Under the pieces are notes generated by a model. It ran no database searches, was not told the DNA's origin, and was given only the letters and a program-made list of their open reading frames with translations. A program made the translations under genes and the position numbers. Positions 14,818-63,259 of a stretch of DNA of 64,000 nt are shown piece by piece; the stretch's first letter is position 1, and every line of letters begins with the position of its first letter. The stretch is taken from the NCBI RefSeq assembly GCF_035083965.1, contig NC_089731.1, forward strand, positions 3,697,001 through 3,761,000, in the 5' to 3' direction. The DNA comes from Branchiostoma lanceolatum. Its lineage: Eukaryota > Chordata > Leptocardii > Amphioxiformes > Branchiostomatidae.

Positions 14818-14823
14818 AATAAA
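14818..14823 (+). terminator. Polyadenylation signal AATAAA, P450 copy 2
   Basis: Canonical AATAAA 42 bp after the stop codon of P450 copy 2. Confidence 0.6.
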
Positions 14824-26348: not shown

Positions 26349-26387
<39 letters not shown>

Positions 26388-30537: not shown

Positions 30538-30977
30538 TGTCTCCCCGCCAATATTGTATGATACGCCAAAAAGCCGATTAAGAAACAGAATATTGTATGA
30601 TACATAATGGATACAGAATATTGTATGATACATAATGGATCCAAAGTAGAGAACAAGACAGACTGATGACTTGATCCGTTGGTGTAAAATTATACAAAGT
30701 TTCTACTAGATCTTCTTCAGAACAGTGTACAGTAAGTTAGAGGTGTAGAAGAGTAAAGATGATCTTTTTATGTCATTCGGTCTTAAATTCAACTACACTG
30801 TACATACTATGGGTCCATTGTAAAGAAGGCTTAATGATCTATTGGTGTGAACTACAAACTAATACAATTTGTTTACGAACAAGACCCATTGTATAAAAGG
30901 GAATCAGTTTGTTGACAGCTATGGGCCTATGTTATGTCTTCTTACCATGTACATGGATGTTTTGGCCTGATATAAAG

Positions 30978-31619: not shown

Positions 31620-34600
31620 TTAGAGAACAGTTTCTTTGCAATCTACTAGTACAGATAGATCTGATTCTGGAGACAAAAGTACTTCCTCTTCAACGGATGT
31701 TGTTATGGTGCCTGTGACGTCACCGTGTCCCGGACGTAAAACGTCGCCATTAGACCATTCCCACCTGTCTGTGTTCCGAGTGTGGTCTTCTTCGCTGGAT
31801 GTTTTTCTACAACAGGAAGATAAACATATTAGTATAGATAAAAAGCTGCAACTAACCGTAGATGTCAAAACTATGCCTTGCATATCTGACTTGGAATGTA
31901 ATCAAATATCTGATGAAAATATCTCTACTGCATTGTGCTGATGTTTTCCATATAATGATTATACTTCTAAGAATAACTTATTTTCAACATCGTACTTTTA
32001 CACCCAGCATCGTCATTTTTGACATGTGTGATTGTGTGATTACAACACAGTCGACTTATTGTCGGTCAGATCAAAAATTAAGGCCTCTTTCCAAGCAAAC
32101 GTTTGCGCAAATATGCAACTGGTAAAGGAGTATTGAGTACATGTTGTCGGGTTTAAAACGATTTTTAAACTTTCGTTAATAATGTCATCAGGTTGGTGAA
32201 TGACCGCATAAAATTCTTTCTTCACAAGCAAGGAGCAACATAGCCTGAATTCAATCAAGCCTCCTGTGACCGCTCGCCGCCCTGTAATGGCCTTGCAACC
32301 CAACCCGCGGGGAGGGGAGAGAAACCCCCGGACAGCTGGAGTTTGCGTCATACAGACTAACACTTGCACTTGATGAGGAGTTCTGGGGCTTCCCCATCCA
32401 TGTGCAAGCACGTCTAACCCTCAGATGATGGGGAACAAAAGACGTTAAATTGGATAGAGAGAGAGAGAGAGAGACTAGGAGCAACATACCAGCCGATGTT
32501 TCCATGACTACCTGTCATCTTCTTAAGGGTAATAATGGCCGATTGCATTGTTGCTGAATAATATCTAACAGTTATGTGACAATGCAATTGGGACCACATT
32601 GTTAGCAGCGACACCTAGCTGCAGTGCAAATTGAACAAGGTCACATACCAGGGGGCCCAAAATCGACCTTGAATTTCGGCTTCACAACACCTGCCCACAT
32701 ACCAAATATCATTGTAATCCATCAAGAGGCTCTTGAGTTATGCTGACTGGAGTGGTGCGGAAACACAAACATACACACCCAAAACAATATCTCCATTTTT
32801 CACGGAGATAATCATCATTGCCCTGAAGATGGTGACAGACGGCTGTTATGTTACTCCTTGGTTCTGAATAAAGAGCTTTGTCATTCAACACTTGCCTGTT
32901 TTCTAGCTCTTCCTTAATCTCCCTCCGCCTGTCCTCCGTGATAGGATACTTCCAAATTAACCCCACACAGAGGAGAGAAAAGGCTGCTGGGACAACTGAG
33001 ATGAGCATCCTTAATGACGTGCCCACAGACTCGGGCTGGACACAAGATCCAGTTTTGTAGCCTCCGATTCTGCATGGAAGAGGAAAACAAGGGACGATGT
33101 TCAGTTCAGTTCATCCTCTTTTAGAGGTGACACAAGTGTTTCCACAAGTTCCTGTCGCACATGACAGATCGAAGTTCCTCATCTTCAAGGCCAACATCCT
33201 CTTCGATCACTTCTTTTAGTGTCAACTACGGGCGACCACGCCTTCGCCTTTCGTTCGGTTTCCAGAGGAGAGCCATACCCGCCATTTCCTCGTGGCGCAT
33301 AACATGGCCGGCCAGAGACAACCTAGACAACCAAGGACGATGTAAAAGCAAGGAGTAATAAACTCGTTCTCACTTCCGAGTACACGGGTGAACTTAGTGT
33401 GGGTAATACGTCACGGGTGAAGGCCCCCGAAACACGCCTTCACATTGTTAGGCTTTCAAGTTATGGGCCTTTCACATTTGACATATTACCCACAGTTCCT
33501 TCGCCGCGTATACGTACTAGGGAGTGTGAATGAGCTTATTGAGATACAGTAGGGGACAGGCTTTTTAGCGAATGCAGGTAAGAATCTTCAAGTTCGCTTT
33601 ATTCAACTTCGGATCGATGGATTGGCTTGAAACTCAGGATTAATTAATGGGAGCATAACCTGAACATATTCCAAGCAAGAAAAATTAGTTTCGTGCAGCG
33701 CGGACTTCGTCAGAGTGGGCGTTTGTGGGCATTCGCTAAAAAGCCGATGCGGATACAGTAGCTGTGATACTGAAAAAAAGTCCATACATGTATGTGTGGC
33801 TCAGGAGATATAGAAATGGGTAAGACAGCAGTCAAAACATGACTTTTACATTCTCCCTTTTTTTTAAACATGACTTCTTTCCTTACTCTAGTGTAATGGT
33901 GGTCACTCCTATGCCTAGGGTCGAGGTTAGACTGAGCACGGACAGGGCCATGCTGAAGAACCAAGTGTCAAGTCGTCTGCCAGTTCGCAAGCTGTAGTCA
34001 TCTATTACGTCAGTAAGCATTGTCCTGTGAGAAAACAAACAAACACTCAATCACCAAACAAAGCCTAAAGGTGCCCTAAGCAATTTCAGGGGGTAAAACT
34101 GGAAATATTCTGGATAAGGCGATATCTATGAAATCGACATTTACTTCCCCATATCAGCACATTTGCATCATTATTTCATACTTTGGGCGTTTAAAAAGAG
34201 TGCAGCAACAAGTCACAGAAGGGGTATCTTATTTATCGGTACTACCCAAAAACTTAAGGTTTGGCAAGACAAGCTTTTCTGTTAAAATCTGTCTCAGTCT
34301 GGCTAGCCTACTTTTTTTGCCTTTCTAGCCTACTTATCAGACGAATCTGGCTTTCCAGTTTTCACATGATGATTTATTGTACACGGTTTCTATTGTGATC
34401 AGTTTCTTATTGCCAGCCTCTGCCAGTACAAGAAACTGAGTGCAATACCTGCCGGACAGATCAATGACATCAGATCAGAAAATGGCTAGACTCGAAGTGC
34501 CTTCTAAAGGGGCTAGAGTCTGACTACATTCCACTCTGCCATATCACCATCAGCAAAAAGAGCATCTTCGTAAATATCCAGGGTCCCCTGATTTGTCTCG

Positions 34601-37600
34601 TTGACATTGTGTCCTTGGGAAAGGCACTTTACATGCATTTCCTCCACTTCATTCAGGTGAAAATGAGTATCTGTCTTCAATTCAGTTAAGGACGTCCCTT
34701 GGATAAGACGTTAAATAGAGGAGGTGCCTTGCTTGAGGAGAACCACACCTTGGGCACGAGAAAGAACTCACCACGCTTATCAAAAAGAGTAGGGGTCCTT
34801 CCCGGTGTGAGTGGATCAAATATATCTGTCCGGATATGCAGCTTTTACTGTTCAGTACAAACCTGATGTGTTACGCCAAAGAGGCAGTTTACTCGATATG
34901 CAATACATATAAAAGAGCATCTTCGTAAATATGAAGTAGACATTTAGATGCCTGTTACCTACCATGGTATGAAGAATCCTGCAGAACCTGCCATGCCGAC
35001 CAAGACGCAAACTACCAACACAGGCACCGCACTTCTACTTGGAAGAAACTGAAGTGCCAGGGTTGTTGGAATAAGAGCCTGTCGGGAGTAAAACCTTTTA
35101 TGTGAGTCAACTATAACAAGATATTACTAAAAATTACAACAACGTCGTAATTTTGCGACATGGACGTCGCTCTATACATTGTAATTGCGTTGTTTGAACG
35201 AATCATAATCACAGAAATGACTAAATAAATTGACTTTCAAAATTCTATTTTTGGGCCATGAAATTGCTCTGGGCCCCCTGTAATGAGGAAGAACTTAGAG
35301 ACTCTTTGAACTGTCATGAAATGCTGAATCAGCTATTAGCCCCCATACTTGCTCTTGACACTTTGTCTAATCAAGCCCTCATTTATTTGTTATTAAGAGG
35401 TCCATCCTTTGTTTCGTCTGATTTCAATTGTAAAATTTTGGGCTTGACACAGGACTTTATTGCTACAAGCAAACGTTTTGAAACGTAGTACAGGTGTGTT
35501 ATCATATTCATTGTTTGTTTGTTAGTTAGTTTGTATTGGACGACCGAATTGCTGTTTCTTATTATTACTGTATCTATTTAAGTTGTAATGTTTATTTCCA
35601 GAGATGATGTTTAATATTAGCGATAGCTAGAGTGCATCATCTCTATGTCCTGTATATTTTTCTGTTGTTTGATTAAAAAAAATGCTGAATCGAGTCTTAC
35701 CAGCTCAAAGCACATGAACGGTATCCTCTTGCCAAACCTGGCCACTATCCTGCCAATAACAGGGACGGAGATGGCTGCAGAAACCTGTACGTCATACGTC
35801 ATAAAATACGTCATAAAATACGTCATACGTCATAAAACGATCATCGTCATCTTCACAGTTCTTGTGTTGTTTTATGCTCTTAATGTCAATAGAATAGCTA
35901 TAGCTCTTCAGCACATGCCAATGTACACTCTAAGCCAGTCTGCTTATAAAATTATTTGAATGGCATCCTCTGGACACCCCTCTTCTACACAGCGGTTACA
36001 GGATCCCAAGCAGATACGGTCCCCAGCCAAAAAACCTGGCCCCGATAAGTTGAAGCGTAAAAGACTGCATTAGTTTTGCTATATAGACTGGAGAACATTC
36101 ACTCAAGAATGAAAATGCTCTTACCGAAAATGCAAGCATGCTGTTGTGGATCTGGCCTGGAAGATCTAAACTGTACTGCACGTAAAGTACCACCGCCCCG
36201 ATCATTACCTGAAAAATATGGTGAACACAATCGCGAGTAAAATATCATCGGCTTCGGTCCCAATTGCACCGGTACCCGTCGGAGGTGTAGTCCCGGCCGG
36301 GCCCCGAAGCCACAAATTTGTCCCGGTGGCCTGACGGGTACCTGGTGGGGGTACACCGGGTCCCGATGTTCGCACGATTAGCTCACGGCGTCTATTTGTT
36401 ACCGGGTCCCGCGTTCAATTCAAGTCCGAGTTGAATTGATTCGGGATCCCGGTCGGGCACAGAAATAGCTCGGCAACCGCAGGGTGTCCGACGGAGCCAG
36501 GTAGGGGTCACGCCCGAAAGTGCCAAAAACAGTCCGTGACCTACCCGGCGGGGCCTTTTTTTCCAATTGGGACCGAAGCATTATATACATGTGCAGTGTA
36601 TTTCAACCTAGTATTGTGTCCGATAATACTCGAGTATTACTAGTAATAATGGTCAGAAATCACCAGTGCTGAATTGCTGCAGGGTTTACAATCACATAAT
36701 AAAGAACAGATACATATCTGCTCCACACTTGCACTTTGTGAAACTGTCTGGGTGGCTGCCATTCGGCGCAGCAGGTTACCTCAATACGACCTTCCCCAAC
36801 CGAATTCGGGTACCCATTCACACCTGGATGGAGGGATGTGTAAAGTGCCTTTTCCAAAAGCACAACATCGGGCCGTACCAGTGGTTTCGAACCCGGGACC
36901 TCTCGGTTCTGGGCGAAACACGCTGCCGATTGCGCCACACGACGCCACTAATACGAGACAAAGAAAGAACCCCAGGGGCCTGTTTTATGAGGAGGCTGGG
37001 AATACTTACAGCAAACGTAATCTGGACACAGAAAAATATCATCAACAGGAAGACATTAGGTCGAAACGTCCAAACTGCCCGGAGCATCTTAAGGAATGAT
37101 TGGCTACGCTGTTGTCCAGAAGTCGTCGAAAAGTCTGAAAATAACAGGAATATTGAAATGAAAATTATTCATCAACTGTGTCTAGATGCAAGTGTACTTC
37201 GGAAGACCTGCCCAGTGCAATGGAGGATAGGGAGGGATGGAGGTGAAGGAAAGGAAAGTGATCTCGATCCAGTTTTAGCTCACTGAAGAGCTAATCTTCC
37301 ACTGGTCGTGACAGAGAAGAAGACAGACGCCATGTACAGTATTTTCAGGTTCATTGTACCGGGGAAATTCCCCTAGCTCTTTTCGAATAGCACAATGAAC
37401 AGTGGACCACGGCTTAACGTCCCGTCCTAAGGACTGCGATCTTTTCCGGTAGCGTGCATGTCGGGTGAGCAACACAGCCGGGATCGAATCCGGGGCTTCT
37501 AGTTCCAGAGGCAAGATCGCTAACCACTGGACTACCCACGCTACTTAAAGGGAAAGGACCATGAGTACCCGTGAGACCGTTACGATCAGAATGAGTAATA

Positions 37601-40600
37601 TTATTCTAAAGAATCAATCTGAGATGGATTCTTTAGAGTAATATTACACATTATCATCATTTCTTATTGCCTCGATAGCTTTGTACAAATTGTATATAAC
37701 TGTTTGTGACATGTATATTTGATCATATTTGTAATCATTTTAAAATGTAAGTGAACCATCTGAAATTCAGTGTGATTTGTTTTCTTCACCCTGCTTATGT
37801 ATGTTCGCCTTTATTGTGATTATGATAAACAAACAATATATTATGAAAAAAAAACTACACTTAATTTCCGTATCTATATAGTAGGGCAGATAAATCTGCA
37901 GAGACAGAACAATTTGTAGATAGGTAATGATGAAAAGAATACCTCTTAGCTCTGTCGTTCCGACAATAATCGCAAGGACGCAGGCAAACATGATGACAGA
38001 AATAACACCAGCAGAGATCAGGTAACCAGTTTTCTACAGAAACATAAGCTTAGTCAGAGCTTCAACAGGAACAAAAACAATATTAGATTTGCTATCATAA
38101 TCATAATTTCTGTTAGCTGTTTCGTCCCTCTAATATAGGAAAATAAGATAGAACACAATTGTGTCGAAATACAATGATAAAGGGCTGGGCTAAAAATTGG
38201 AATAAACAATAACCATCTGATATAAAGACTACGAAATCATTCCAACCATTACCATTGTGTTTTGCTAATGAACAGCTACTATCGAAATACTAACAGCTCT
38301 GTAACTTTGGCGTATCTTTCTGACAACAAGATGCCATTGATTTATCTATGCAGTCCTTAGCGTGCATAGTTTTGGACAAAACAAGTTTTCGAAGACGTGC
38401 AGTGATTTCACAAGTCGCCAGCGGGTGCTTGACAGTTCTTACCTCCTCTGCCAAAGAGGCGTGGTCCATGGTGCCGTTTGTACTGTTGGCAGTGCCTGTT
38501 TCGTTGGAAATGGCACACGGATCAATCTGGGCCTGGGAGTACGCACCGACGATTTGTCCATGTATCGTAACACCTGCTAATATTCCAATCAACCCAAAAA
38601 GTCCCCCTGCAACAACCAAATCGCTCATGTCAAAAGATATCACAACATTGAAAAAAAACTTTTTAAGTTCACACAAATAAGAAGAAAAAAAACGAAACTC
38701 ACTGGTAACAGCTGACGCCAAGATAAAAATACAGATGAGCCTACAATTGAATACGTTACCTGCAATAATTGGAATACAATTGCAATATGCATTAGAGGAC
38801 GATACATAATAACACAGCTGTTTGCACACTACAGCAATACTCACTGTACGCAGTTGCCGAGTCTCTTTCCTGACTGTCAGGACTTAGAAACATGACGTAG
38901 GTACGGGAAGACACGACGAGTGCCTGAGGAAACAAAACAATGAAATTATCAAGTCCATCCAGACATATCAGGAATTGCCAAAAATAATTACTCAAGCAAC
39001 TGGATAAAGTTTTGAAAACTTTTTGGAAAGTTTTTTCAAAACTTTATCCAGTTGCTTGAGTAATTATTTTTGGCGTATCTTACTACCTGGATGTCTAACT
39101 TTCATCACCTCAAAAGTTCAACATAATACTACGTAGAACATAATAGAATGAAATCACATTCTTACCGTCTTAGAAAATATGACGACGATGTTCAGCACGA
39201 TGTACCATACCAACTTGCCCTCCAACCCCACATCCGGGACATACCACAGCAGGATGTACACGGGAGCGATGAGAAGTCCGGCGCCCAGGATCCTGATTGG
39301 TTCACAAAACTGTCATAAGTTTCACATTTCCCATAATGCACCGTCTGGGTCCCGGGAATGAAGGAAGGAAAACGAGCCTGCGATTTTACAACAGTCTCTC
39401 TCTGCATGCGAAACGACGCGACATATAATGGCACGAACCAATTGGCACGCAGAAGACAACTCGGGGCTTCGTTATTGATCCCATTGCATGCTGAAAGACG
39501 CGGATGGCACTGTGGGTAAAGCCCCCTCTCACTGGACCCGCGGCACACTGGCGGCACGCTGGCGGCGTCGCTGCGTCCTAAACTGGATTTGTGTTGCCCT
39601 TGACTTTATAATGGGAATACCATTGAAAACGTACAAGTAAGACCAAAAAGACAACAAAACACACAAAGCTTAATGAAAAAGATTCGTTTTTTGTCGATGA
39701 AATTCGTTGAGTACTTTGTCAATTCGATCGGCCGCAGCGACGCCGCCAGCGTGCCGCGGGTCCAGTAAGAGGGGGCTTAATGCATGCAGAATGCAAACGC
39801 AAAAAAAATGCAATCAGCATCATTACCGTGACATGGCGTATGTGGCGCAAGCGTACTGTGTCCGGTCCAGCTTATGCTGTCATAGTGATGAATTGTTTTC
39901 TCCTTACATTACCCATAGTACATTTGGGTATGCTTTGTATCTCCCAGCCGTGCAATGGAATATATGATAAGTTCTGGGGTCATCCTACTTTTAGGATTAT
40001 TGTCATATCTTGTATATCTTTTATGTACTAAGTATTTTTAATGTATTTATATGGTTTCTGCAGACTTAGATCATATCTTGGGTAACAATTCCGACTTGTT
40101 GGATAATAGTGGGCGAAAATTGTATCTATGGAATTGTATCTATAAATCTTTCTATTGAAACACATGAGCGAGTTGAGTTTACAAACTCCTGGCTTCCTGG
40201 ATCGAACCCGGGCCCGCCAAGTCTAAAGGCCGCATGCCAGACTGACCGGTTAGACTGGCCAGTTAGTGGCACCCTACTGTTACACTATATGCATAATATA
40301 TAGAGAGCTAGAGAGGGGGGGATATGAAGGACAATGTATGTATAGCTGCATTACTCTCATGTTCATTGTGAGGTTTAAGATAGAGGCGGTCAGTATGCTA
40401 TGTCACATCATCATCTTGACTCGTGATAACGTTGACTCTTACCATGGTTTCAACTTTCCCCATCTTGTGTCCGTTCTGTCCATCAGCGGAAGTATGATGA
40501 AGTTACAGACGGCGTCCATAACCCTGCCGCTAAACACAACGGAAGTTCCATAGACAGGCCGGAGCTAAAACAAAGATGGCGGATGCAAACGTTCAAGAAA

Positions 40601-43600
40601 TACATGTACTTTCAAATTTGGTTAGTAAAACGGACATTCTACAAAAGCCATGAATCATAATCCATGCCATTAAATATGTAGGGTGCTGCAACTTCGGACG
40701 TAAATTTATGAGTTCGACATCGCATTGCATCAGTGACGGTTGTCTAGAAAGCGTTGCGTTTTGACAAGTGATAAATAACAGTGGTGGTGCTTGAGGACTT
40801 GCCGTTGTGGAGTTGATCGTCCGTGGTTTTGCAGCCCCGTACGTACTCTCATCTCTCGGTTTCCAGTGATAATTCGGAGTTTTTCAGTAACGAAGTTGCC
40901 TCATTGCTGGGCTTATACGTAGTTTACGGGGCTCAGTATACGTAGTTTACGGCTCCAACCGTGTGTTTTTTCATGCGATAAAACGGCTGTGCGTCGGTAA
41001 CGTTAAAGACCATTGCTGGACACCCAGATATGACAAAACCTCGTCACTGGAAGCCTAGCGATGAAGACACCTTCGATGCTGGACACCGAGTGATTACAAA
41101 GGAACCCGTGACCTCAGTACTTTTGCCGTTCGATAAGGTTAGGTTCCGGCTAGCCGCGGCGACTCTAGTGGGAAGACGTATTTACTTGTCACATATACAG
41201 TGGAAGACACTGTATAACATACAAGTAAATAGGTCTTCCCACTAGAGTCGCCGCGGCTAAGTTCCGGCCAGAAAGGTTCGTATTTTACGGCATTGCAGGG
41301 CTACGAAGTTGTATTGCACGGGGTTCCAGCAGCAAATGATTCGAACGCACTTCGCGTGCGTATTCTGGCTCCAGTGTAACTCCTGGGTGCCATCCTTATA
41401 ATCTAGTGTTCGGGACTCCCATATGGGATGCCCGCAAATTAGGTAGGGTATTGGCACCCAGGCTATCTTTTGCAATTGATCGCTTCTGTGGTGGGTTCAC
41501 GGAAGAGGCTGGCTTAAATTACCAGGCTTAGTCTGTTACCCTATCTGGGCCCCCAGGGGTATGCATGGGGGTTTGGCTTGTAATGGAATTTCCGAGAGAA
41601 AAACTGTGTCAATGGCAACACCAGCTGTGGGTGGATATTAAGCAAGGCAACAGATAATAATCATAAGGGTCTCATAACTGCTGAGGGATGGGGTGGGGGA
41701 GCAATGAAAGAAAATAACAGCACAAACAACACTATACATGGTAAAAAACACATTCACACATGCTAATCACAATAATACACAAGCCCATATATGCATGCAC
41801 ACTCAAAATTCTAAGTGTGAAACATCTGTTTTCAATTTGATGTGTTGGAAAACAAAGGTCTTACCATTTTACTAGTACCCCTCCCATTCAACGTTAACAT
41901 TCGACCGGTATATTATATTGTGTACTTGGAGTTTCTTTAAGTAACGCCACACCCCCACCCCCCACCCCCACAGCAATATGATAAGTGTTGCCCTCCACCC
42001 AAGTCACCCTCAGCTGGGCTATTGACCCATTTTCCCCCTTTTACTATGCGCCAAATCCCCATGCATAGCCTTGAGGTCCAGAAAGGGTAGTCTGGCAGGG
42101 TAGCCTGCATTTTCCGCAAACCCTTCTGTGGCTCCTTAAGCCGGCGTCACAATTCATGCGAGCGTCGGCCGAATTTGTAGATCGCCCGAAGCTCGCCGAA
42201 TTTCAAAATCGCCCGAGCGTCGGCCGTATCTTCCAATGAAAATCTCGGGTGACGTCCGTTCAACACTAAAAGCTAAAAATCCCCCATGAGATGGTACCAT
42301 TTCTTGGACATGGACGAAGTCAGAAACGACTAACCTACTAAATGCCAATATTTGGATCAACTTTGATTTCTTAAAATCGTCCGAAGTCCGCGTAATCGAC
42401 CGGACGTTGGCCGTACTTCGGCCGAAAATACCATTTTGGAGCTCGCCGACAAGTCGGCCGAGCTGAATTCTTGATTTGTGACGGGGGCTTAAGCGATCAG
42501 AGAAACAGACTGCATGGAGGGAGAATAGGATGATCTAGGATGGCTATTTGTTTCAAGTCATGTTCCCATCACGGAGGGCCTGCATGCCCCTTTTACGTAG
42601 AGCGTAATCGGCCTTTTTAATTTTACGTAGAACGTTGCCGACCACTCCATAATTTAGCGTAGAACGTAAGGGGGGGGGGGCTTTTTGAATTTAGTGTTTT
42701 ACGTGGCCGGTGTTCAGGAATTATCGGTCCCCCAGGAAAATCGGTCCCCAATCCATGGTGGGCGTGGCCTAAAAAGTACGAAGGCCCACAGGGCCAAAGA
42801 CATAGATATCATCCACAAACACTGTCTTTGAATTGAATACTTAATGCCAAATGTATGAATTGTAAGAAGGTGGGACGGACATTGTCCACAAACACAAATA
42901 TGAACGTTTCATCAACAAAAAGTATCAGTTTTTGGCCATTGCAGGGACACATTTTCCCGGGGTAGCCAGGATTTCCGGTCCCCTCATAGGAAAGTCAACA
43001 ACTCTTCTCCTAGTAGTGATGCATTTGGAAAATACTTTATCTTTAAATTACTTTAAACTTGAGTTGATGCTCTTAACACAAAAATATAAACGTTTCAAGG
43101 GCAACAGTCTCTGCATTTGTCCATTGAGGGAATTCAGGGGAAGGGGACTCATTTTCCCGGGGTAGATCTAGCCGGGATTTTGGGTCCCCTCATAGAAAAG
43201 TCAACAACGCTTCTTCTGATGAACTTGGAAGCTTCTTTGTCAACTTCAAGGCGCTTATCTGAAGATTTAACACAACTATAAAGGTTTCAAAGCAAAAAGT
43301 TTCAGAACTTGGCCATTGAGGGGATTTCAGGGGAAGGGGACACATTTTCCCGGGGTAGATCTAGCCGGGATTTTCGGTCCCCTCATAGCAAAGTCAACAA
43401 CGCTTCTTATGATGGACTTGGAAATTGTTTGACAACTTAAGGGACGCTTCTCTGAAGAATTAGCACAACTATAAACGTTTCAAAAGCAAAAAAATCTCAG
43501 GATTTGGCCATTGAGGGATTTCAGGGGAAGGGGACACATTTTCCCGGGGTAGAACTAGCCGGGATTTTCGGTCCCCTCATAGGAAAGTCAACAACGCTTC

Positions 43601-46600
43601 TTATGATGGACATGGAAATTGTTTTTCAACTTAAAGACGCTTCCCCGAAAACTTAACACAACTATAAACGTTTCAAAAGCAAAATGTCTTAGGATTTGGC
43701 CATTGAGGGGATTTCAGGGAAGGGGACACATTTTCCCGGGGTACCCGGGATTTTCGGTCCCCTCATAGGAAAGTCAACAACGCTTCTCCTGATCCATTTG
43801 GAATCCTGTTTTTATACTTAAAGACGCTTCTCTGAAGACTCAACACAACTATAAAGGTTTCAAAGCAAAACGTTTCAGAACTTGGCCATGGAGGGGATTT
43901 CAGGGGAAATAAATTATAAACGTTTCAAAAGCAAAAGTCTCAAGATTTGTCAATTAAGGGGGAGGGGGACACATTTTCCCGGGGTAGCCGGGATTTTCGG
44001 TCCCCTCATAGGAAAGTGAAAAACGTTTCTTCTGATGTACTTGGAAATTGTTTGTCACTTTCAAGGCGCTTATCTGAAGATTTAACACAACTATAAAGGT
44101 TTCAAAGCAAAAAGTTTCAGAACTTGGCCATTGAGGGGATTTCAGGGGAAGGGGACACATTTTCCCAGGGTAGATCTAGTCGGGATTTTCGGTCCCCTCA
44201 TAGCAAAGTCAACAACGCTTCTTATGGTGGACTTGGAAATTGTTTGTCAACTTAAGGGATGCTTCTCTGAAGAATTGGCACAAAAATAAACGTTTCAGAA
44301 GCAAAAAGTCTCAGGATTTGGCCATTGAGCGGATTTCAAGGGGAGGGGGACACATTTTCACGGGATTTTCGGTCCTTTCATAGGAAAGTCAACAATGCTT
44401 CTTATGATGGACTTGGAAATTGTTTGTCAACTTGAAGCGCTTCCCTGAAGACTTAACACAACTATAAACGTTTCAAAAGCAAAAAGTCTCAGCATTTTGC
44501 CATTGAGGGGATTTCAGGTAAAGGGGACACATTTTCCCGGGCCAGGGTAGCCGGAATTTTCGGTCCCCTCATAGGAAAGTCAACAATGTCTCTTCTGATG
44601 GACTTGGAATCCTGTTTTTATACTTAAGACGGTTCTCTGAAGACCTAACACAACTATTAACGTTTCAAACGCGGAAAATGTCAGCATTTGTCCATTGAGT
44701 GGATTTCAGGTAAAGGGGACACATTTTCCCGGGCCGGGGTTAAGCCGGGATTTTCGGTCCCCTCATAGGAAGTCAACAACGCTTCTTCTGATGGACTTGG
44801 CATTGGAAACTTGTTTTTCAACTTGAAGACGCTTCTCTAAAGACATAACACAACTATAAACGTTTCAAAAGCAAAAAGTCTCAACATTTGACCATTGTGG
44901 GGATTTTAGGTAAAGGGGACACATTTTCCCGGTCCAGGGTAGCCGGGATTTTCGGTCCCCTCCTTTGAAAGTCAACAACGTCTCTTAAAATGGAGTTGGA
45001 AACCTGTTTTTCAACTTGAAGACGCTTCTCTGAAGACCTGACACAACTATAAACGTTTCAAAAGCAAAAAGTCTCAGCATTTGTCCATTGAGTGGATTTC
45101 AGATAAAGGGGACACATTTTCCTGGGCCGGGGTTAAGCCGGGATTTTCGGTCCCCTAATGAGAAAGTCAACAACGTCTCTTCTGATACACTTGCAAAACA
45201 GTTTTTTAAATTTAAGACGCTTCTATGAAGACTTGACACAACTGTAAACGTTTCAAAAGCAGAAAGTGTCAGCATTTGTCCATTGAGGGGATTTCAGGTA
45301 AAGGGGACACATTTTCCCGGGCCGGAGTAAAGCCGGGATTTTTGGTCCCCTAATGAGAAAGTCAACAACGTCTCTTCTGATACACTTGCAAAACTGTTTT
45401 TCAACTTGAAGTTGCTTCTATGAAGATATGACACAACTATAAACGTTTCAAAAGCAAAAAGTCTCAGCATTTGCACATTGAGGAGATTTCGGGTAAAGGG
45501 GACATATTTTCCCGGGCGGAGTTAAGCCGGGATTTTCGGTCCCCTAATGAGAAAGTCAACAACGTCTCTTCTAATGGACTTGGAAACCTGTTTTTCGACT
45601 TGTAGACGCTTCTCTGAAGACTTTACACAACTATAAACGTTTCAAAAACAAAACGTCTTAGCATTTGGCCATTGAGGGAATCTTAGGTAAAGGGGACACA
45701 TTTTCCCGGGCCAGGGTTAGGCCGGGATTCGCGAAGATGCTTGAAGACGCTTCCCTGAAGACTTGAAAAAAACTATAAACTTTTTGCTTTAGAAACGTTC
45801 ATAGTTGTGTCAGGCGTTCAGAGAAGCGTCATCAAGTTAGAAAACAGGTTTCCAAGTGATTCAGACGAGACGTTGTTGACTTTCCTATGAGGGGACCGAA
45901 AATCCCGGCTTTACCCCAGCCCGGGAAAATGTGTCCCCTTTACCTAAAATCTCCTCAATGGCCAATTAATGAGACTTTTTGTTTTCGAAACGTTTATAGT
46001 TGTGTCATATCTTCATAGAAGCGTCTTCAAGTTGAAAAACAGCGGCCAGGTTCAAGAGAAGACAAAATGTTGACTTTCAAATGAGGAGACCGAAAATCCC
46101 GGCTACCCTGGCCCGGGAATATTTGTCCCCTTTACCTGAAATCTCCTCAATGGCCAAATGCTGATACTTTTTGCTTTTGAAATGTTTATAGTTGTGTCAG
46201 GTCTCCAGAGAAGTGCCTTCAAGTTGAAAAAGTTTCCAAGTGCATCAGAAGAGACGTTGTTGACTTTCCTATGAGGGGACCGAAAATCCCGGCTATCCCG
46301 GGAAAAGTTTGTCCTCTTCAGATGAAATCCCACAATGGCCAAAACCCTTTGAAACGCTTTTATCAATTTTCATAGAATCGTCTTTAAGTTGAAAATTAGG
46401 GTTCGAAGTAGACCAGAGGACGATTGTTTCATTTTTCCTAGTAGGGGACATTATTTGTCGACAATGTCGACAGTGTAGAATTGTTATGTTACAGCCTATG
46501 TGGGCCTTCGTACTTTTAGGCCACGCCCACCAGTCTCAAATGTGGACCAATGGCAGGAGGGGGACCGATTTTCCCGGGGGGACCGATAATTCCTGAAAAC

Positions 46601-46887
46601 CTGCCCTCCGTATTTAGCGTAGAGCGTTGTCGGGACCCCCCCCCCCCATGCAGGCCCTCATTACGTAATGAATGCATATCTTCAGCAAAGGTAGTCAAAT
46701 GGTTCCTCCCAGTCTTATACGAAAAAAAGACAAATTCACAAATGCCTTTTTATACCTGAGCGATCTCCACCAGAAAGACGTTGGTGTAAGCCCCAAGTAC
46801 GGTCCAGAAGACTTCCACGGCCGTCCCACCCAATCCATAACAGATCTTCGACATAACAGACAGAGGCTTTCTCTCCTCAAGTGGCAT
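31620..46887 (-). CDS. mfsd2-like: MFSD2-like transporter (sodium-dependent lysophosphatidylcholine symporter-like), copy 1
   Basis: Plasma-membrane MFS carrier of the MFSD2/GPH group; vertebrate MFSD2A imports LPC-bound lipids with Na+. Thirteen exons: 46887-46756, 40564-40443, 39292-39166, 38923-38845, 38606-38443, 38033-37943, 37134-37010, 36208-36125, 35784-35701, 35078-34963, 34024-33887, 33069-32896 and 31806-31620, giving 540 aa in unbroken phase. Family marks: VEIAQ, a GRVMD helix-2 motif, RDSATAY, an extracellular loop with one Cys and N-glycosylation sites, GSCVQPESV, and WKYPITED before the tail. The second Asp of the DxxxD Na+ motif is Asn. The intron after exon 12 uses a GC donor (AG|GCAAGT). 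Kozak context GCCACC-ATG. An upstream acceptor at about 46911 suggests a 5'UTR exon. Introns hold many transposons. Confidence 0.9.
33095..33330 (-). mobile_element. Non-LTR retrotransposon 3' remnant
   Basis: The minus strand encodes LAGHVMRHEEMAGMALLWKP, then RRRRGRP, then a stop, then EDVGLEDEELRSVMCDRNLW. This is the conserved C-terminus of an EN-RT protein. It ends in a GAACTGAACTGAAC tail, typical of simple-repeat LINE ends. 5'-truncated and stop-containing, inside an intron of MFSD2-like copy 1. Confidence 0.7.
33390..33502. repeat. Small inverted-repeat element
   Basis: Ends AGTGTGGGTAATACGTCA and its imperfect complement TGACATATTACCCACAGT enclose about 75 bp. MITE-like; no clear duplication seen. 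Confidence 0.55.
33558..33745. repeat. Inverted repeat with 17-bp perfect arms
   Basis: GGCTTTTTAGCGAATGC at about 33559 and its exact complement at about 33728, about 150 bp apart, in an intron of MFSD2-like copy 1. Confidence 0.7.
34578..34910 (+). repeat. SINE with perfect 22-bp target duplication
   Basis: A 333-bp element bounded by identical 22-bp direct repeats (34556-34577 and 34911-34932, beginning AAAAGAGCATC). It holds the TTGTGTCCTTGGGAAAGGCA central block and the GACGTTAAATAGAGG and GTGTGAGTGG tail blocks shared with copies at 1, 10637 and 28582. The long duplication shows LINE-machinery insertion. Confidence 0.88.
36251..36579. mobile_element. GC-rich terminal-inverted-repeat element
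   Basis: Perfect 16-bp ends GCTTCGGTCCCAATTG and complement enclose about 300 bp of much higher GC than the flanks, with many CCGGTACC- and CCCGG-type motifs. No coding capacity; target duplication not clear. Confidence 0.75.
36660..36958 (-). repeat. tRNA-derived SINE, intact head
   Basis: The minus strand begins GTGTGGCGCAATCGGCAGCG (A-box) and has GGTTCGAAACC (B-box), then the TTGTGCTTTTGGAAAAGGCA central block, GGTGTGAATGGGTACC, and a tail ending GTGATTGTAAACCCTGCAGC. The same family is split by the retrotransposon at 54225-58925 and truncated at 63025-63250. The 206-codon frame on the plus strand here is spurious. Confidence 0.85.
37255..37545 (-). repeat. tRNA-derived SINE, second family
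   Basis: Minus-strand head GGTAGTCCAGTGGTTAGCG (A-box) and GATTCGATCC (B-box), then a body with GACGTTAAGCCGTGGTCC and AGCTAGGGGAATTTCCCC. A related body lies at 51000-51265. Confidence 0.8.
37590..37648. repeat. Short hairpin
   Basis: Arms GAGTAATATTATTCTAAAGA and complement around a ~12-bp loop, in an intron of MFSD2-like copy 1. Confidence 0.75.
38975..39077. mobile_element. Foldback MITE, family A, copy 2
   Basis: Arms of about 45 bp sharing AATAATTACTCAAGCAACTGG with copy 1 at 30111. The right flank is the complement of the left flank of copy 1, confirming one family. A degenerate relative (CAACTGGATAGATATTGAAAA..) is at 21938-22045. Confidence 0.85.
39521..39776. mobile_element. TTAA-type MITE, family 1
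   Basis: Ends GCCCCCTCT(C/T)ACTGGACCCG extend into about 44-bp inverted repeats with GGCACGCTGGCGGCGTCGC. Flanked by TAAA on the left and TTAA on the right, i.e. a TTAA target with one change, as in piggyBac or Kolobok elements. No coding capacity. Confidence 0.8.
40155..40275 (-). repeat. tRNA-like SINE head
   Basis: The minus strand contains GGGCCCGGGTTCGATCC (B-box) preceded by an A-box-like GGCCAGTCTAACCGGTCAG. No tRNA acceptor pairing, so not a tRNA gene. Confidence 0.5.
41150..41268. mobile_element. Hairpin element with ~50-bp arms
   Basis: Arms starting GTTCCGGCTAGCCGCGGCGA pair almost perfectly with the complement ending at about 41268, around a 27-bp loop itself containing a CAGTG..CACTG stem. 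In intron 1 of MFSD2-like copy 1. Confidence 0.85.
42140..42488. mobile_element. TTAA-type MITE, family 2
   Basis: A 349-bp element with ends GCCGGCGTCACAA and GCCCCCGTCACAA, flanked on both sides by TTAA (42136-42139 and 42489-42492). The inside is rich in CGTCGGCCG and CTCGCCGA motifs. Nonautonomous; TTAA fits piggyBac or Kolobok. Confidence 0.85.
42575..46658. mobile_element. 4.1-kb hAT-like element carrying a ~195-bp tandem array
   Basis: Termini AGGGCCTGCATG in inverted orientation, flanked by near-identical 8-bp direct repeats CATCACGG (42567-42574) and CATTACGT (46659-46666). The inverted repeats continue inward about 220 bp with gaps: GGAATTATCGGTCCCCC and GGTGGGCGTGGCCTAAAA recur at both ends. 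Subterminal CGTAGA(G/A)CGT motifs occur three times on the left and once on the right. No transposase frame. The middle is filled by the tandem array. Same family as the 54893 element. It lies in intron 1 of MFSD2-like copy 1. The superfamily is inferred only from the 8-bp duplication. Confidence 0.85.
42949..46450. repeat. ~195-bp satellite-like array with an internal inversion
   Basis: ATTTTCCCGGG marks each unit, at 42951, 43151, 43344, 43538, 43730, 43973, 44159, 44354, 44531, 44723, 44923, 45117, 45311, 45506 and 45710 (mean spacing near 197). After about 45785 three units are inverted (marks near 45920, 46111 and 46300). Other constant parts are ACAACTATAAACGTTTCAAA and GTCCCCTCATAGGAAAGTCA. 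One unit, at about 43900, carries a 50-bp internal duplication. Confidence 0.95.
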
Positions 46888-48334
46888 GGTGGCTGCAAAC
46901 TTCTTCTTTGGACTTAAAGAGGAAAAAGAGGTACAAATTACATTAATCAATGATGATGGTGAATGGTTTGTCCAGTTCTTACACGTAGCAGCCTTGCACT
47001 GCAGACGCTTTGTTAGTGTACAATCACTGCTGTATATTTGCCTCTATCATTACTTAATAACTGGAGGGAACAGTCTAATAGATAAGTGACTTGTCTACAC
47101 TGAAGGGGCGGGATAACGAACAAACAAGATTAGTCATTTTATTTACACTTTACGACCAGTAGATAATTGACAGGCAGCTAGCACGCACGATCGCAACTGA
47201 TTTCTACACTTTGAATGTTAACAACAAAAAAAACATCCGACATGAATGTTAACAGCAACAAAAAACATCCGGCATAGGAAAGCCATTACCGGGGTGGGTC
47301 AGTGCTCTGATGATGCTTTTACGTAGGGAACTGACAATCACGGCGACTTTAGATGACACATTTACATTTTATTTGTAGGGACATGTAGAGCGCATCCGGT
47401 CAGAAACACGTCAAGCCGAGTAAAATGCAGCCTTTTTAAGGTAGTATGAAGAACACTAACGTTACATGGTGGAATTATGGTAGTATGCACTAGGAAATAC
47501 GAAAATACATTGTCTGTAAATCTGTAACGGGGTCACTTATGTCACCAACCAGAGCATGTACGATACTACAACGCTATTAAACGCCAAACTTACCTAACTT
47601 ACGTTTTGATTGGTTTGGTGGGGTATAAGGTAGTGAAGACGGCACACATCTAACCAAACTGCAGGTGGATCGTGAGGCCCAAACTAACAAATAGTCCATA
47701 AACAAACATCACTTATCAATGACCCAGTTACCCTTTGGTGACCTCTCAACCCTTTCATCATCATCATCATCATCTCAGCCATTCTGTAGTCCCCAATGAG
47801 CAGCTGTTTGAAAATCTTATAATTATCCGATAGCCTATGACAACTCCGGACTTTTACTTGACTGGTCATATAATCACCTTATAGATCGATCTATAGTTAA
47901 CGAACATCCTGAGGCCAGAAAAAAATGGTAACAAGGACATGCGGTGATGCCACGTCACAATTTACTTTCCGTACCTTTGGCGTTACATTTTTGTATCAAG
48001 GGTATGCCTTTTTTATATCAGACAGAATGATATGCTGATAAAGCTACAGACCAATTGTTTTTTTTACAATCGCACCATTTCTATGTTTCCTGTATAATTG
48101 CCCCACATATCATACCATTGATTCTCCACAATCTGAACGTAATTTGACCTTTGAAACAAGTCGAACAGCTTTATGCTTAGGTGTGACACTGACAGGTTGT
48201 GCAGGGACTCTTCTCTCATTATTAAGCAACAATAATAAGTCATTATTGCTCTGAAGAGGATAACCTATGATGCCTGCAGTTGGTTGTTTGCACCTCTTGT
48301 TTTATACACAAATGTATTAACGTTCCTGTTGTAG
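46888..48334. other. Intergenic between the two MFSD2-like genes
   Basis: Upstream side of MFSD2-like copy 1, with a probable 5'UTR exon end near 46911. It holds a short duplicated AACAGCAACAAAAAACATCC block at about 47220-47270 and an ATC microsatellite at 47758-47775. No gene seen. Confidence 0.5.
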
Positions 48335-48521
48335 GAAAACATCCTGCGAAGAAGACCACACTCGTAACACAGAGAGGTGGGAAGGGTCTAATGGCGACGT
48401 TTTACATCCGGGACACGGTGACGTCGCAGACACCTTAACAGCATCCGTTGAAGAGGAAGTCCTTCTATCTCCCGAATCAGATCTATCTGTACTAGTGGAT
48501 TGCAGAGAGACTGTTTTCTGA
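48335..48521 (+). pseudogene. Inverted orphan copy of the MFSD2-like last exon
   Basis: The plus strand has an acceptor (TTCCTGTTGTAG) followed by an open frame to a stop at 48519-48521. It encodes KTSCEEDHTRN.., then EEEVLLSPESDLSVLVDCRE, then TVF-stop. This matches the last exon of MFSD2-like copy 1 (31806-31620), which lies in the opposite orientation. No companion exons on the plus strand. Confidence 0.85.
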
Positions 48522-48782
48522 GTTTTAAGTAAGCTCTTTAATTCTTGTTGTAAATTACATCGTAAATTCATTCTCAGGGAAATGTAAGTGTAAGATAATT
48601 CGTCAAAAAAATTAAATTGTTATTCGTAGCCCAAAAATGGCAATCAATGCAATGGGTCCCACATTACTGCTATATTTCTGTGACGTTCGGCGCAAATTCA
48701 TAATTAAGGACCAGCCTTTTATCAAAAAGTATAATATTCCAATAAAGCCGAAGATTTCGGTTTCCTATGGCAATTCTATGCA

Positions 48783-51700
48783 TCATACCGCTGATTCTCT
48801 ACAATCTAAAAGTACAGACAAGTCAAGTTCTGACGACAAAAGTTTGTCTTCTTCCTTCAGTCCTTCTGGTCTTGAACAAGTTGAAGTCTCCTCAGGTAAA
48901 AGAGCTTTCCCGTTCATATTGGACAGGCTTCCGTTTCTCTGGATGTCGTCAGGTTGGGACTTCGTTGAAAGTTTTCTATGGAGAGCATAAAGGTGAAAAT
49001 TGAGCATACTCGTCTCAACAGCACACAGGCTAGCAACTTACAATAGGTAAATATAAATGCCTTTCTGAGGTCGTGGTGGCAATGGGTAATGCATGGTTAA
49101 TCTACTCTTTTAAACCGCCTTTTACCTCCCAGGGTGAAGCCAGGTACCCATTTTTCGCGTGGGTGGAGTCAGGAAGGTGGTATTAAGTGACTATCCCAAT
49201 GACATAACGTCTTACTCTCACGCAGAGGAGGGGTTCCGGCAGGTTTTGACGCGTTTTTAGACGTTTTTGTCGGGATTTCTACTTTGTCATTTGTCTATAC
49301 AAAAGAAAATGACAAAGTAGAAAGCCCGACAAAAACGCCTAAAAACACGTCAAAAACCTGCCGGAACCCCTCCTCTGCTTGGAGAGCAATAACGTCTAGG
49401 AATGGAACCTATGACCTCTCGATCCAGAGTCCGTTAGCCTTACCATTTCAGCTATCGGCGCCACTTAAGCGGCCTACTACATGTGCGTATATCGCTCGTT
49501 CTCATTTAAATGTACACATTTTGTAATCTCCGTTACCGTTAGAAGTAAGACGTTCCTGGCATTAAGATATGCCACATATAAGGTACCAAACTGCCGTTTT
49601 TAAAAGCTAGAAAAGTTTTAAGTCGTCATAAAAACTACAGTTTGACATCTTATATGTGGCGTATCCTAATGCCAGGAACGTCTTATTTCAATCGGTAACG
49701 GAGATTACAAAATGTGTACATTTAAATGAGAACGTGCGATATATAAGGAGACAGCTAAAATCCCTGCCTGCGACAGAATTACAACTAATGCAAAACTAAT
49801 AGGACAATCCATTTTTTCACTGTTCTACATGTAAGGCCATGTACATGTTGCTTTGATTAATTTTCGTACGTTTCCAAAAATAGCTTTTTTTTCGAAAACT
49901 TTTTTATTCGCAAACTCGCATCAGTTTTGGGGTTCCCAGAGGATGTCATCCATATAATCAAAACAACACGGCCTAACTGAAAAAAAGGTGCTATCAGTAT
50001 CCTTTAGAAGTCGACGGTCAGTAGTCTGCCTGAAAATTTTAGAACAAACAGTTTTAGGACGCTTCGTGACGCTACTGTAAAATTGTTGCTAATCATACAT
50101 CCTACGTATACTCCATACGTTAATGTTTGTTCTTACAATGATACTTTACGACAAGCCAGTTCCATAATTATTAAGGTAGAAAGGCGTGTAAGTGGGTAGA
50201 TGTAGGCCCCTAACTGTTAACAGTTCTTGTCCAGACTATGCTTTGGATGTTTTGTTCATCGCCACCCTATGTTAGTGTTGTGATTGGTACGGTTCGATGA
50301 CCTATGATGTAACGAGGTCACCCTCGTACTAGGCTTGTTCGCCATGTTGTTATTCCATTGAGATGTCCATTACAGCTCGTCTCCTCATCATCGCACTCGT
50401 TGCATGTGTCTTTGAGTCGTCGCGTACGTGTTTTACAGATGACGCATGTCTTAGGGCCTTCACCTTTGACAAAATGCCTACAATGCATCCATTGCTCATG
50501 CGCAGTTGGAATCGTGAACACGCTTATTGCAGATTCGTGTAGCGTCAAGTAGAAATTGAGTCATTTGACGCAGCTAAAATAAGTTAATAACAATCTGGGC
50601 AGGAATATGCAACAAAGACTATTGTTGATAATGATATTTTAAAAATTCTAACCGTTGGTTGATGGCCTCGATAATTTCTTTCTGTCTCTCCTCTGTGATT
50701 GGATATCTCCATGCAAACATCACGCCTACGAAGGCCAGGACTGACGTACACGTGGATAACAGAATCCGCATGGCGCTTCCTACCGTGTCAGGCTGAGTAC
50801 AGGATCCTAGTTTGTAGCCTCCGATTCTGCAGCGGGAACACAAAGGAAATGCAATAGATGTCACAGCAAACTCTGTACCTATGTCTTTATTCTTGAGGGA
50901 AGCAAGGATCGTCATGGAATGATGATAGGAGAAAACTTAAGATCGTAAGCAGCAGCTGCGTAAAGATGGCCCCGGTTCTTCGGATACTAACAGTAAGACT
51001 TTGCCGTCATCGAAGACCGGAAAATAAATTCAAAGTGATCTGGAACCAGTTTAGCTCAAATGAACTTAATGAAGAGATCAGCCAATCTCCCTCTGGTCAT
51101 GACTGACAGACGATATATACAGTATTTACAGGTTCACTGTAACGGTGAAATTCCCCTAGCTCTTTTCGACAAGTACATTGAACAGTGGACCTGTACAATT
51201 CCTAGAATCCTTGGAGACTGCGCACAATACTATACCATTAGGCTCGACCCTGAGGCGTCGCCAAAATAGTAGCGGTACTCACTCCAGCCCGAGGGTGGCG
51301 GTGATCAGTCCAACGGTGATGGCGAGACTGTCAGTAGACAAGAAGATGGCGACGAAGGGAGTGTGCAGTCTTTCACCTGTCTGTAGGTGGTAGTCCTCTA
51401 TAATGTCACTGATTATCAACCTGTGTGCATGGGCATTTTGTGTTTGTTTACATATTTCACTAGTGTCAATAAGGCCATTATTGAACAAAGGAGCGGGTGT
51501 CCTAGCGGGTTTCCTCAAGTTTCTATAAAGCATTCTTAAGTTATGGGTATTTGGCCAATAACAGGCATGTCTTAAATCAGTTTCACTTTCATGTAAAACG
51601 TATCTTCTTCATCACCATTAACGCACATCAGAAAATTGCTTCGGCTGAAATAACGTGAGTAATGTGAGGTATAGGATAAAACCTTACGTATGCTGATATG

Positions 51701-54700
51701 TACACGACTGCCCTCTAAATGTATTTCATTTCTCACCAAACCGACACATTTTCGTTAGTGTCTGCATGTAAATTCGATCACTTACCATGGTATAAGAATT
51801 TGTGCCAGCGCCGTGAAGCCAATGCCCACGGTAACTGCATAAACAGAGAAGCTTCCGTTCGGTATAAACTGAAACCCAATGTACACTGGGATTGCAGCCT
51901 GCAACGAAAAAAAATACAAATTCACTTTTCTAAAGCTCAAGATCTGACCATAGGGATGTTCTAGGACACCATATTGGCTTCCAATAAGACAAACAGAACT
52001 AGAAAGGCAACATTTGCAGGAGTAAATGCAACATGTATCGCCCATTTCCCTCAGTCCCATGCAAAAAGCGACTGTGGCATCGAGGCTTACGTTTGTTATA
52101 TGTCTGCAATGTTGGTATTTGAATAAATAATTGAATTGAAGACCAGTCAGAAATGGATCTCTCCCAATTTGAAACCCTATACATGGATGGGCTCTTCCAG
52201 GCGCCCATACCTATACTGGACCATTAAAAAAACACCTCCACCAAACAAAAGTGGACCTTCTTGATAATCAACCAAGCCCAAAATTGAATTTAAAAAAAAT
52301 GTCCCCCTCATACAAGAATGGACTCTTCCAGCTATGTGTGGACCAGCACGTGTCATGCAAATTTCCGAATGTGAAGAAGTGAAATCTTGCTGAAGATCTG
52401 GATTTCTCCCGCGAAAGAATTTTCGCAAACCGAGAGTCCAGACAATTGTTCATTACGCAAAGGTTTCACAAATTTCGGCTAAACGTACCGCAAATTTCTG
52501 ATGCGTATTTCGTGACCTGTACTGTAACACATACCACCATTTAAAAAAAACCTTACTAAAGAAAGGATACACAATCAATTGTAGGGATATAAGCGTATTC
52601 TTGGTGTAAGTGAAAAAAAATGTTATTGCTGTATATATGTATGATTGTATGTACACACAGAGAGGAATATAGAGCAATAGATTTATGTCGAAAAACACCA
52701 CCAGAAAAGGCGTAGATTTTGAACCTTCTCAATTGCACATAAATTCATTAGGACACAACATCAACACTAGAAAGGCATCATTTGAGACAGCAAATACAGA
52801 ATATTTTCTCACCTTTCTCACGCGGCGGACATGATAGAATGAAAACGAGGCCCTTGTGGCAAACAATAGACCGATCCTAAATGTCAATCACAATTAGCAG
52901 TTTAGCCAATTATTACCTGATGATTAGAGAATCAACCAATGATGAAGTGGCTGCATGTCCGTCAAATATTTGCATTTCTATGTTTTTATTTTGCATTTCT
53001 ACGTTTTGACGGAGGAGGACGGGGACAATGGGATCGGTCAATAAAGCTCTAAATTGCTGAATCTTTTTTGTGCATTACATTAGTTATGATATTGATACTT
53101 GGACATCATATTTTAAAACTTAATGTGATTTTGGAGGAAAACTAAATCTGTACATCATTTTTGTTTCTTTGCCTCATTGGCCTCGTCTTCATTCTATCAT
53201 GTCCGCCGCGTGAGAAAGGTGTATGTCCCCCGCTCAATGATTACGCGCACAAATCACAGGTCAGGTCCACGTGGGACTTGGGGTCACTGACCTTTAGGTC
53301 GTGTTGTTTACGTTCGCACCTGGCCATATGAATAAAAATGTGACCATATATGGCAACACCATATATGGTCATAGGAGAAAAATTGCCGATCTTCTCCCCA
53401 AAACACCCTCCAAAATAGTTTTTTGAAGTGGTGTATTCCGAAAGTGCGAATGGGGGTCTTTGAATATTTGTTCAATGTACCCCCATTGCATTTCAGGTCA
53501 TTTAGATGTATTTCCAGAGCACAGGAGGCCAATATGTACGTTTTTGGTAAGAAAAACCTCAATAAAATCGTTTTAAAGACATTTATAAAAAAAATGAAGA
53601 AAAAAAACACACCCCAGGGTATTTACCCACTCTACCTGTATACCAAATTTCAGCTCAGTTGGTCCAGAGTCGATTTGAAGATTTGACAGGAGAAAGAAAC
53701 ATTACGAACACAGTATGTTGCGCCCAACATTTTGCTGGGGTTAGTTTTGACCAAACTGGACCACTCGTAAACTTTCCAGGATAACTTAATTAACAATGAG
53801 CCAATCTCGGTAAAATCCTATGAGAAGTTATAACATAAACACAAACAAACTCCTAGGAAAAAATTTGTTTTAGACTAGAAATGTCAAAATGGCACATGTT
53901 GATATACACCTGGGGTCAGTTTTGACCCCATACGGTGGTTTGAGGGTCAACCAAACAGCGGCTATAACATAGGGTTTCATGGACTTACCAGCTCGAAGCA
54001 AACGTAGGAAATCCTCTTCCCAAGTTTGGACACAACCCAGCCGATAATAGGCACGGCTATCGCTGATGACGCCTTTAGGAGAAACCTAATATTAGTGTCA
54101 TCAAAGCACAGAATTCTCTAGATCTACAAAATGGACAAAATATGGCAGAAAAGATATACATGTATAGCAAGAGCAAACAGTGTAGAGACAGGAGGCTTCA
54201 GAATCTTTCTGCAACTTATTTACAATAATAATAATGGTTTTAATTGGCTAATTTTCATTATCCGTGCAATGGCAGCCTTTCTAGTGCTGATAGGTGCAGG
54301 GTTTACAATCACATAATACACATGGGCCCCCTGCGAAGTCGGAGCACCTAGGGATCTCGCGGCTGCCGCAGTCCCCACACTCAGGAGAGTGTGCCTCATC
54401 GTGGTGCAGGGGTGAACTCAGGGTAACGCAAAAACATCTGCAATCCCTGAGGCCAATGGGTGCACGTGGAAGCCACTGGGTTAATCTCCCACAGGTGGAT
54501 AGTCATGTATATGGCAACCGATTACGAAAACCTCAGTGCGAAGGTCTCAACCTGCCAGAGGACTAACTCAGAGCGGGACGAGGCGTGTTGATAGTTTTAG
54601 TGACACTTCTGGAGGAGGACAGCCTATGACGTCTCATCGACCGAAGCTCTTGTCCCCCAAATACCGTACTAACATTGCAACATGGAATGTTAGAACTCTT

Positions 54701-63250: not shown

Positions 63251-63259
63251 AAAGAATAA

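Follow-up and report, generated by a model that had tools for sequence, protein, structure and literature searches.

A probable foldback transposon with arms of ~195-bp tandem units and a shorter companion element with homologous ends in Branchiostoma lanceolatum

In a computational analysis of 64,000 nucleotides of the Branchiostoma lanceolatum genome (RefSeq assembly GCF_035083965.1, contig NC_089731.1, positions 3,697,001 to 3,761,000 of the forward strand; hereafter the window, numbered from its first letter), we found that a 4,084-bp unit at 42575-46658 (element 1) is very probably a non-autonomous DNA transposon of the foldback type. Its body consists of two opposed arrays of ~195-bp units, and its ends recur on a shorter element 8 kb away (element 2), which lies within the reading frame of a long interspersed nuclear element (LINE). 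A first-pass annotation, made from the letters alone, had called the unit a non-autonomous element built from a satellite-like array; its coordinates and inverted termini were correct. The terminal sequence AGGGCCTGCATG lies without mismatch at 42575-42586 on the plus strand (A end) and at 46647-46658 on the minus strand (B end), giving perfect 12-bp inverted ends (13 bp if the adjacent base pair is included), and no further exact copy occurs within the window. Next to the A terminus, the subterminal region (42587-42674, plus strand) carries short repeats that are weak and degenerate. By end alignment and a two-sequence profile it shares homology with element 2 at the latter's right end, as does the B-end subterminal region (46606-46646, minus strand) at the left end. 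Farther inward lies an inverted subterminal block, whose left copy (42705-42790, plus strand) pairs with the reverse complement of the right copy (46499-46605, minus strand; containing GGGGGACCGATTTTCCCGGGG) at a local alignment score of 107. Random window pairs (up to 300) reached at most 33 and 300 shuffles at most 28, which bears out the gapped inverted subterminal sequence claimed earlier. No reading frame of at least 100 amino acids overlaps element 1, and a search of 42000-47200 against Rfam gave no match at the gathering threshold.

The body had been described as a single ~195-bp tandem array. Repeats do fill it, but they do not run one way. Tandem Repeats Finder reported the forward units as two rows that overlap, one at 43072-45710 and the other at 44361-45729. 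It placed a further, separate array at 45779-46343, which self-comparison identified as an inverted copy of the forward array. As delimited by the tandem repeats and core counts, the left arm (42775-45729, plus strand) comprises 15 units of ~195 bp, the two outermost of them degenerate, and a partial unit. The centre (45730-45778, plus strand), read by eye and from the fold, is a truncated forward unit that extends up to the inversion point; the right arm (45779-46440, inverted) holds the central partial unit, two whole units, and a degenerate outer unit. The array therefore runs forward for 15 units, reverses at 45778, and continues backward for 3-4 units; by eye, the forward arm breaks off in mid-unit at 45778 and the inverted arm starts there in nearly the same phase. 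The core GGGGACACATTTTCCCGG is distributed in the same manner: at 0 or 1 edits it marks 15 forward units (core ends spanning 42960-45709), and inverted cores lie at 45921, 46113, and 46298 (0, 2, and 3 edits, respectively), with the partial unit separating them from the centre. Matches also fall within the subterminal blocks, at 42732 (minus strand, 3 edits) and 46577 (plus strand, 2 edits), and weaker matches (4-6 edits) occur on both strands because the core itself is nearly palindromic. The arms are complementary over up to 335 nt at 84%, and the central 761 nt, folded as single-stranded DNA, reach -249 kcal/mol, against a mean of -85 for 20 shuffles. Because the direction of the array flips at 45778, we read element 1 as a foldback whose inverted arms are unequal and repetitive within: as in foldback elements, the long inverted repeats are tandemly repetitive, and repeat number differs between the arms (15 units plus a partial one versus 3-4).

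The inner units (L02-L14 of the left arm; R1, R2, and the partial R3 of the right arm) share a mutual identity of 75-94%, and the outermost ones (L00, L01, and R0) are the most diverged, at 51-76% to any other unit (the 36-base partial excluded). Those of the right arm are closest to left units L11, L10, and L08. Taken in order, L02-L04 match L06-L08 at 92, 94, and 93% (mean, 0.931), against 0.880-0.908 for the other five orders, and a lag of 4 gave a permutation value of 0.019 across 12 left units, L05 having been excluded for an irregularity of ~50 bases and L00 and L01 as degenerate. These patterns fit, and weakly suggest, growth of the left arm by duplication of multi-unit blocks, in which the outer units would have been left behind.

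The best evidence for a mobile family comes from element 2. A low-threshold comparison of element 1 with the rest of the window matched its first 86 bases to 55944-55861 (minus strand; expect value [E], 1e-5) and its last 47 bases to 54934-54893 (minus strand; E, 0.005). These matches are two facing ends 1,052 bp apart, and they delimit element 2 (54893-55944), which lies in opposite orientation to element 1 and has the termini AGGGTCTGCATG and its inverse, differing from those of element 1 at one of 12 bases. Each element has one end of type A and one of type B, the two types being distinct. Between the elements the alignment extends over ~100 bp for the A ends and ~50 bp for the B ends, and each end matches its counterpart at the exact terminus. 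The B-end score of 45 compares with a maximum of 25 among 2,000 random window pairs, and the A-end score of 53 was reached by two of 2,000 random pairs, both in stretches listed as repeats by the self-comparison of the window. Profiles built from the two sequences of each end matched only the two elements and short repeats inside them, the next matches having E of 6.8 or worse. No third copy of the ends occurs in the window when up to one mismatch to the 12-mer is allowed. The first-pass annotation had named a lack of other copies with these termini as the finding that would count against it, and element 2, which it had not noted, is such a copy. Its interior is of another kind. Three copies of a 31-bp direct repeat lie near its B end (54916-55000, plus strand) and six of ~31 bp near its A end (55764-55930, plus strand), oriented alike; between them are degenerate repeats in a single orientation (55176-55755, plus strand), spaced at 185, 189, and 155 bp; shifted by ~185, the sequence is 69% identical to itself across 253 bp. 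The 31-bp repeat has weak, degenerate counterparts in the A end of element 1 (E, 0.14, 1.1, and 4.9).

Both elements show flank agreement at a common length of 8 bp. The candidate target duplications of element 1, CATCACGG on the left (42567-42574) and CATTACGT on the right (46659-46666), agree at six of eight positions, and with 12-bp ends the other lengths from 3 to 11 give at most two matches; those of element 2, TGTCAAAG (54885-54892) and CGTCAAAG (55945-55952), agree at seven of eight. Among 200,000 random pairs of 8-mers from the window, six or more matches occur at a frequency of 0.0052 and seven or more at 0.0005. Thus, the 8-bp near-identical flanks noted earlier for element 1 are real at 6/8, but by themselves they are only suggestive. 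If the ends are instead taken as 13 bp (GAGGG...), the duplications read GTCAAA/GTCAAA (6/6) and ATCACG/ATTACG (5/6); accordingly, the length of the target duplication is 8 bp, or possibly 6 bp.

Element 2 is flanked by the two parts of a LINE. The frame upstream (54503-54892, plus strand) matches positions 1-51 of the Exo_endo_phos profile (E, 0.018, below the curated cut-off), and the endonuclease and reverse transcriptase frame downstream (55953-58679, plus strand; RVT_1 and Exo_endo_phos_2) is open for 926 codons. Over the open frame 55899-58676 the RVT_1 match has E of 9.6e-33 and the Exo_endo_phos_2 match exceeds its cut-off; 55953-56400 also matches Exo_endo_phos positions 118-206, below the cut-off. 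Dropping one copy of the 8-bp flank restores the phase of the LINE frame. Among offsets 0-11 the same holds for 2, 5, and 11, and 8 is the sole in-phase offset that also fits the flank duplication. Thus, elements 1 and 2 have the ends of one family of non-autonomous DNA transposons, and the assignment made from the letters alone is upheld because element 2, with homologous ends, interrupts a LINE frame with a 7/8 duplication. A dispersed repeat, 70-78% identical among 36665-36816, 58704-58829, and 63085-63251, has one copy (at 58704) that starts ~25 bases past the LINE stop codon.

We compared the array core with the ends of the element. Exact ATTTTCCCGGGG occurs seven times in the window, all inside element 1; at up to one mismatch there are 17 occurrences (15 in element 1, two in element 2, and none elsewhere) and at up to two mismatches 29 (20, three, and six, respectively). 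The variant ATTTTCCCCGGG at up to one mismatch gives 11 (eight in element 1, two in element 2, and one elsewhere). The sharing of the core by the two elements was noticed first and these counts were made afterwards. In local alignment with the unit, the score of the right subterminal block in reverse orientation was reached by none of 500 shuffles, and that in the other orientation by 24 of 500; for the left block the figures were four and five of 500 in the two orientations. With the unit profile the right block scored only E of 1.2, and the left block was absent from the list. The earlier suggestion that the satellite grew from the element's own ends therefore stands as far as a short shared stretch, but the block contains no whole unit and the comparison gives no direction of change. 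In the Galileo transposon, tandem repeats can contain extra transposase-binding sites (PMC3688188), and by analogy the core common to the array and the subterminal block may be a candidate site of this type; at present Galileo offers the best model for it.

Several observations weigh against the assignment of element 1 to a family of mobile foldbacks. Its own flanks mismatch at two of eight bases, so that the case for its mobility rests mainly on the shared ends, and only two copies, with no further one, are present within the window. Element 2 contains no inverted pairs and is itself no foldback. The LINE frame would be in phase by chance in one case of three, offsets 2, 5, and 11 being open as well; moreover, Exo_endo_phos positions 52-117 are covered by neither LINE match, and with these positions unaccounted for the profile is no proof of seamless continuity. 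Between the blocks and the array, the outer zones of the two arms (L00 versus R0) are weakly alike, their score being reached by 18 of 1,000 shuffles. As to block duplication, the mean identity at lag 4 (0.873) is barely above that at lag 1 (0.872), and several lags were inspected. Special conservation of the core is unsupported, since the best 40-base window of the unit, which holds the core, scores 0.943, short of the 0.948 that marks the 95% level for shuffled columns. Finally, a Pfam search of 17 stretches, covering a minority of the window's 58 frames of at least 100 amino acids, found no transposase.

The main competing explanation, which we consider possible though distinctly less probable, is that an ordinary non-autonomous element took up a satellite already present in the genome, or that such a satellite expanded within it, and that an internal inversion later produced the inverted arm, in which case the foldback form would say nothing about how the element moves. 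Element 2 speaks for such a history, having like ends and its own repeats in one orientation but no inverted arms, and those repeats are unmatched by the unit profile of element 1 (E, 5.1; local scores reached by 291 and 56 of 500 shuffles). Against it, the inverted subterminal block flanks both arms and carries the short array core within it, a configuration that fits arms made of the element's own sequence rather than of captured DNA. Elsewhere in the window only short, non-significant matches to the array occur (up to 30 bases, E at least 0.77), although 60 kb is too little sequence for this absence to count heavily. That there is no transposon at all, merely a satellite array with an inverted duplication whose inverted ends and flank match arose by chance, we regard as very improbable: the flanks of element 1 alone (6/8; 0.0052 per comparison) would permit it, but the homologous ends of element 2, with a 7/8 duplication in a LINE frame, largely refute it. 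Equally hard to credit is a Helitron or Helentron derivative with a tandem array. Such elements are not known to have inverted termini or target duplications, and both elements here have inverted termini with flank matches at one length; what speaks in its favor is that Helitrons often carry tandem repeats, as stated in the review literature.

For element 1 as a non-autonomous foldback, we propose the following course. An autonomous relative elsewhere in the genome would supply a transposase that binds the ends and the subterminal repeats and mobilizes the element through a cut-and-paste mechanism, leaving an 8-bp duplication. An inverted duplication around 45778 would have given rise to the arms, whose lengths would then have changed independently, the left one perhaps lengthened by multi-unit block duplication through unequal exchange or replication slippage. 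An 8-bp duplication suits several superfamilies, including Mutator, hAT, and others. The Mutator range of 8-10 bp accommodates a length of 8, with 6 still a possible value. The hAT superfamily, characterized by 8-bp duplications and ends starting YAGGG, does not fit: each of the four ends has G ahead of AGGG. Nor does the 7-bp duplication of Galileo, which belongs to the P superfamily with its THAP-domain transposases: the flanks match at one or two bases at length 7 and agree at 8 (12-bp ends) or 6 (13-bp ends).

The first-pass annotation had called satellite-bearing DNA transposons of this size rare. This is overstated, because foldbacks whose inverted repeats contain tandem units of ~210-220 bp have been published, among them Tetris and the F subfamily of Galileo. 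Tetris of Drosophila virilis (PMC4079207) is a non-autonomous foldback for which that account reports no transposase found; its inverted repeats consist of an outer flanking domain and a variable number of ~220-bp tandem repeats, and its target duplications are 8-10 bp. Dias and colleagues (PMC4079207) noted that the flanking domain and the 220-bp repeat share 37 bp at ~80% and described DAIBAM, a shorter relative with Tetris ends (PMC4079207). Element 1 resembles Tetris in its foldback plan, its satellite-length units, a stretch shared by outer domain and unit (shorter here), and a short relative with common ends; the likeness is one of architecture, taken from the published description. In the one Tetris allele pair described, the left repeat has three and four units; longer arrays, of up to 66 units, and arrays next to Tetris ends are reported as well (PMC4079207). 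The longer arm of element 1, unlike those of the allele pair, has 15. Element 2 differs from DAIBAM in having direct 31-bp end repeats and another array. In the Galileo F subfamily of Drosophila mojavensis (PMC3573991), ~210-bp tandem units are unequal in number between long inverted repeats, as in element 1; it is, however, a member of the P superfamily, its duplications are 7 bp long, and two or three units are reported, compared with 8 (or 6) bp and up to 15 units here. Tm1 of root-knot nematodes (PMC3169594) is foldback-like: its inverted repeats are composite and vary in length, and its duplications are 8-10 bp, mostly 9, but its tandem unit is ~14 bp and it has short terminal motifs outside the inverted repeat. 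The Xenopus elements miDNA4 and Xstir (PMC12628747, PMC9659126) are non-autonomous DNA elements with a satellite unit inside inverted ends, and for miDNA4 satellite capture or expansion within the element has been proposed; unlike element 1, they are not labeled foldbacks in these descriptions, and miDNA4 is assigned to Tc1/mariner. By title or abstract opening, no publication describing element 1 was found in the literature searched, which lacks most subscription papers and in which the DNA sequence itself cannot be queried; passages of PMC12910113 and of PMC5802833, the latter on amphioxus transposons, contain nothing relevant to it. Element 1 joins a known foldback type, and what sets it apart is the 15-unit arm together with its companion, element 2.

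The finding adds to the Drosophila cases a long-armed foldback with satellite-length units, and the insertion of element 2 in a LINE frame provides a built-in empty-site test. If the family is common in the host, the route from a transposon end to a tandem array, and the escape of such arrays as free satellites, would be traceable; the review literature offers several differing models for the transition from transposon to satellite. One speculative reading, to which we give little credence, is that a single transposon family serves as a repeated nursery of satellites, new arrays growing around an end-derived core and one line having been mirrored into a foldback. Its basis is that the same pair of ends carries, 8 kb apart, a ~195-bp array and degenerate units spaced at 155-189 bp. 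These arrays have no detectable kinship beyond a 12-base core, ATTTTCCC(G/C)GGG, whose orientation relative to the ends is equal in element 2 and in the left arm of element 1.

Searches beyond the two elements yielded little. Scanned by exact pattern, viral contigs contained no stretch matching the A end, and none matching the array core or the 31-bp repeat; an 18-mer of the subterminal block recovered one, which has no similarity to the element beyond 16-18 bases and was taken as chance. The B end with a variable gap recovered 83 stretches in prokaryote contigs, and among the matches listed 80 of 80 are bacterial by title; the pattern is loose, and we estimate that some tens of chance matches are to be expected. 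For DNA of animal origin, such an outcome in viral and prokaryote sequences is no surprise. Within the rest of the window the unit profile gave a best E of 0.016 at 15781-15848, under the inclusion threshold, which we do not regard as homology. A transfer RNA scan of the window gave no hits.

The remaining gene content of the window includes leucine-rich repeats, a cytochrome P450, and MFS_2 pieces. Two tandem gene-like stretches (4527-8311 and 11090-14825) are 71-86% identical in DNA; the second contains the cytochrome P450 profile match (12208-12693), and the interval between the two stretches holds a shorter repeat in several copies (9019-10595). Exon-like MFS_2 pieces occur on either side of element 1, at 32709-33110 and at 50619-50936 (the latter below the curated cut-off), and a minus-strand frame at 813-1370 matches galactose-3-O-sulfotransferase (E, 3.1e-16). 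A ~330-bp sequence is found in opposite orientations at 31544-31857 and 48282-48611, with 82% identity, and one frame is largely open in each copy. Another dispersed repeat, up to ~300 bp long, occurs at 60-137, 10745-10959, 28573-28873, and 34603-34913. The short sequences at 30081-30181 and 39038-39107 are 94-95% identical and match in both orientations, so that each is probably a small inverted repeat. A TG-rich minisatellite with a 16-bp unit lies at 26346-26540 and a perfect 28-bp tandem duplication at 30585-30640.

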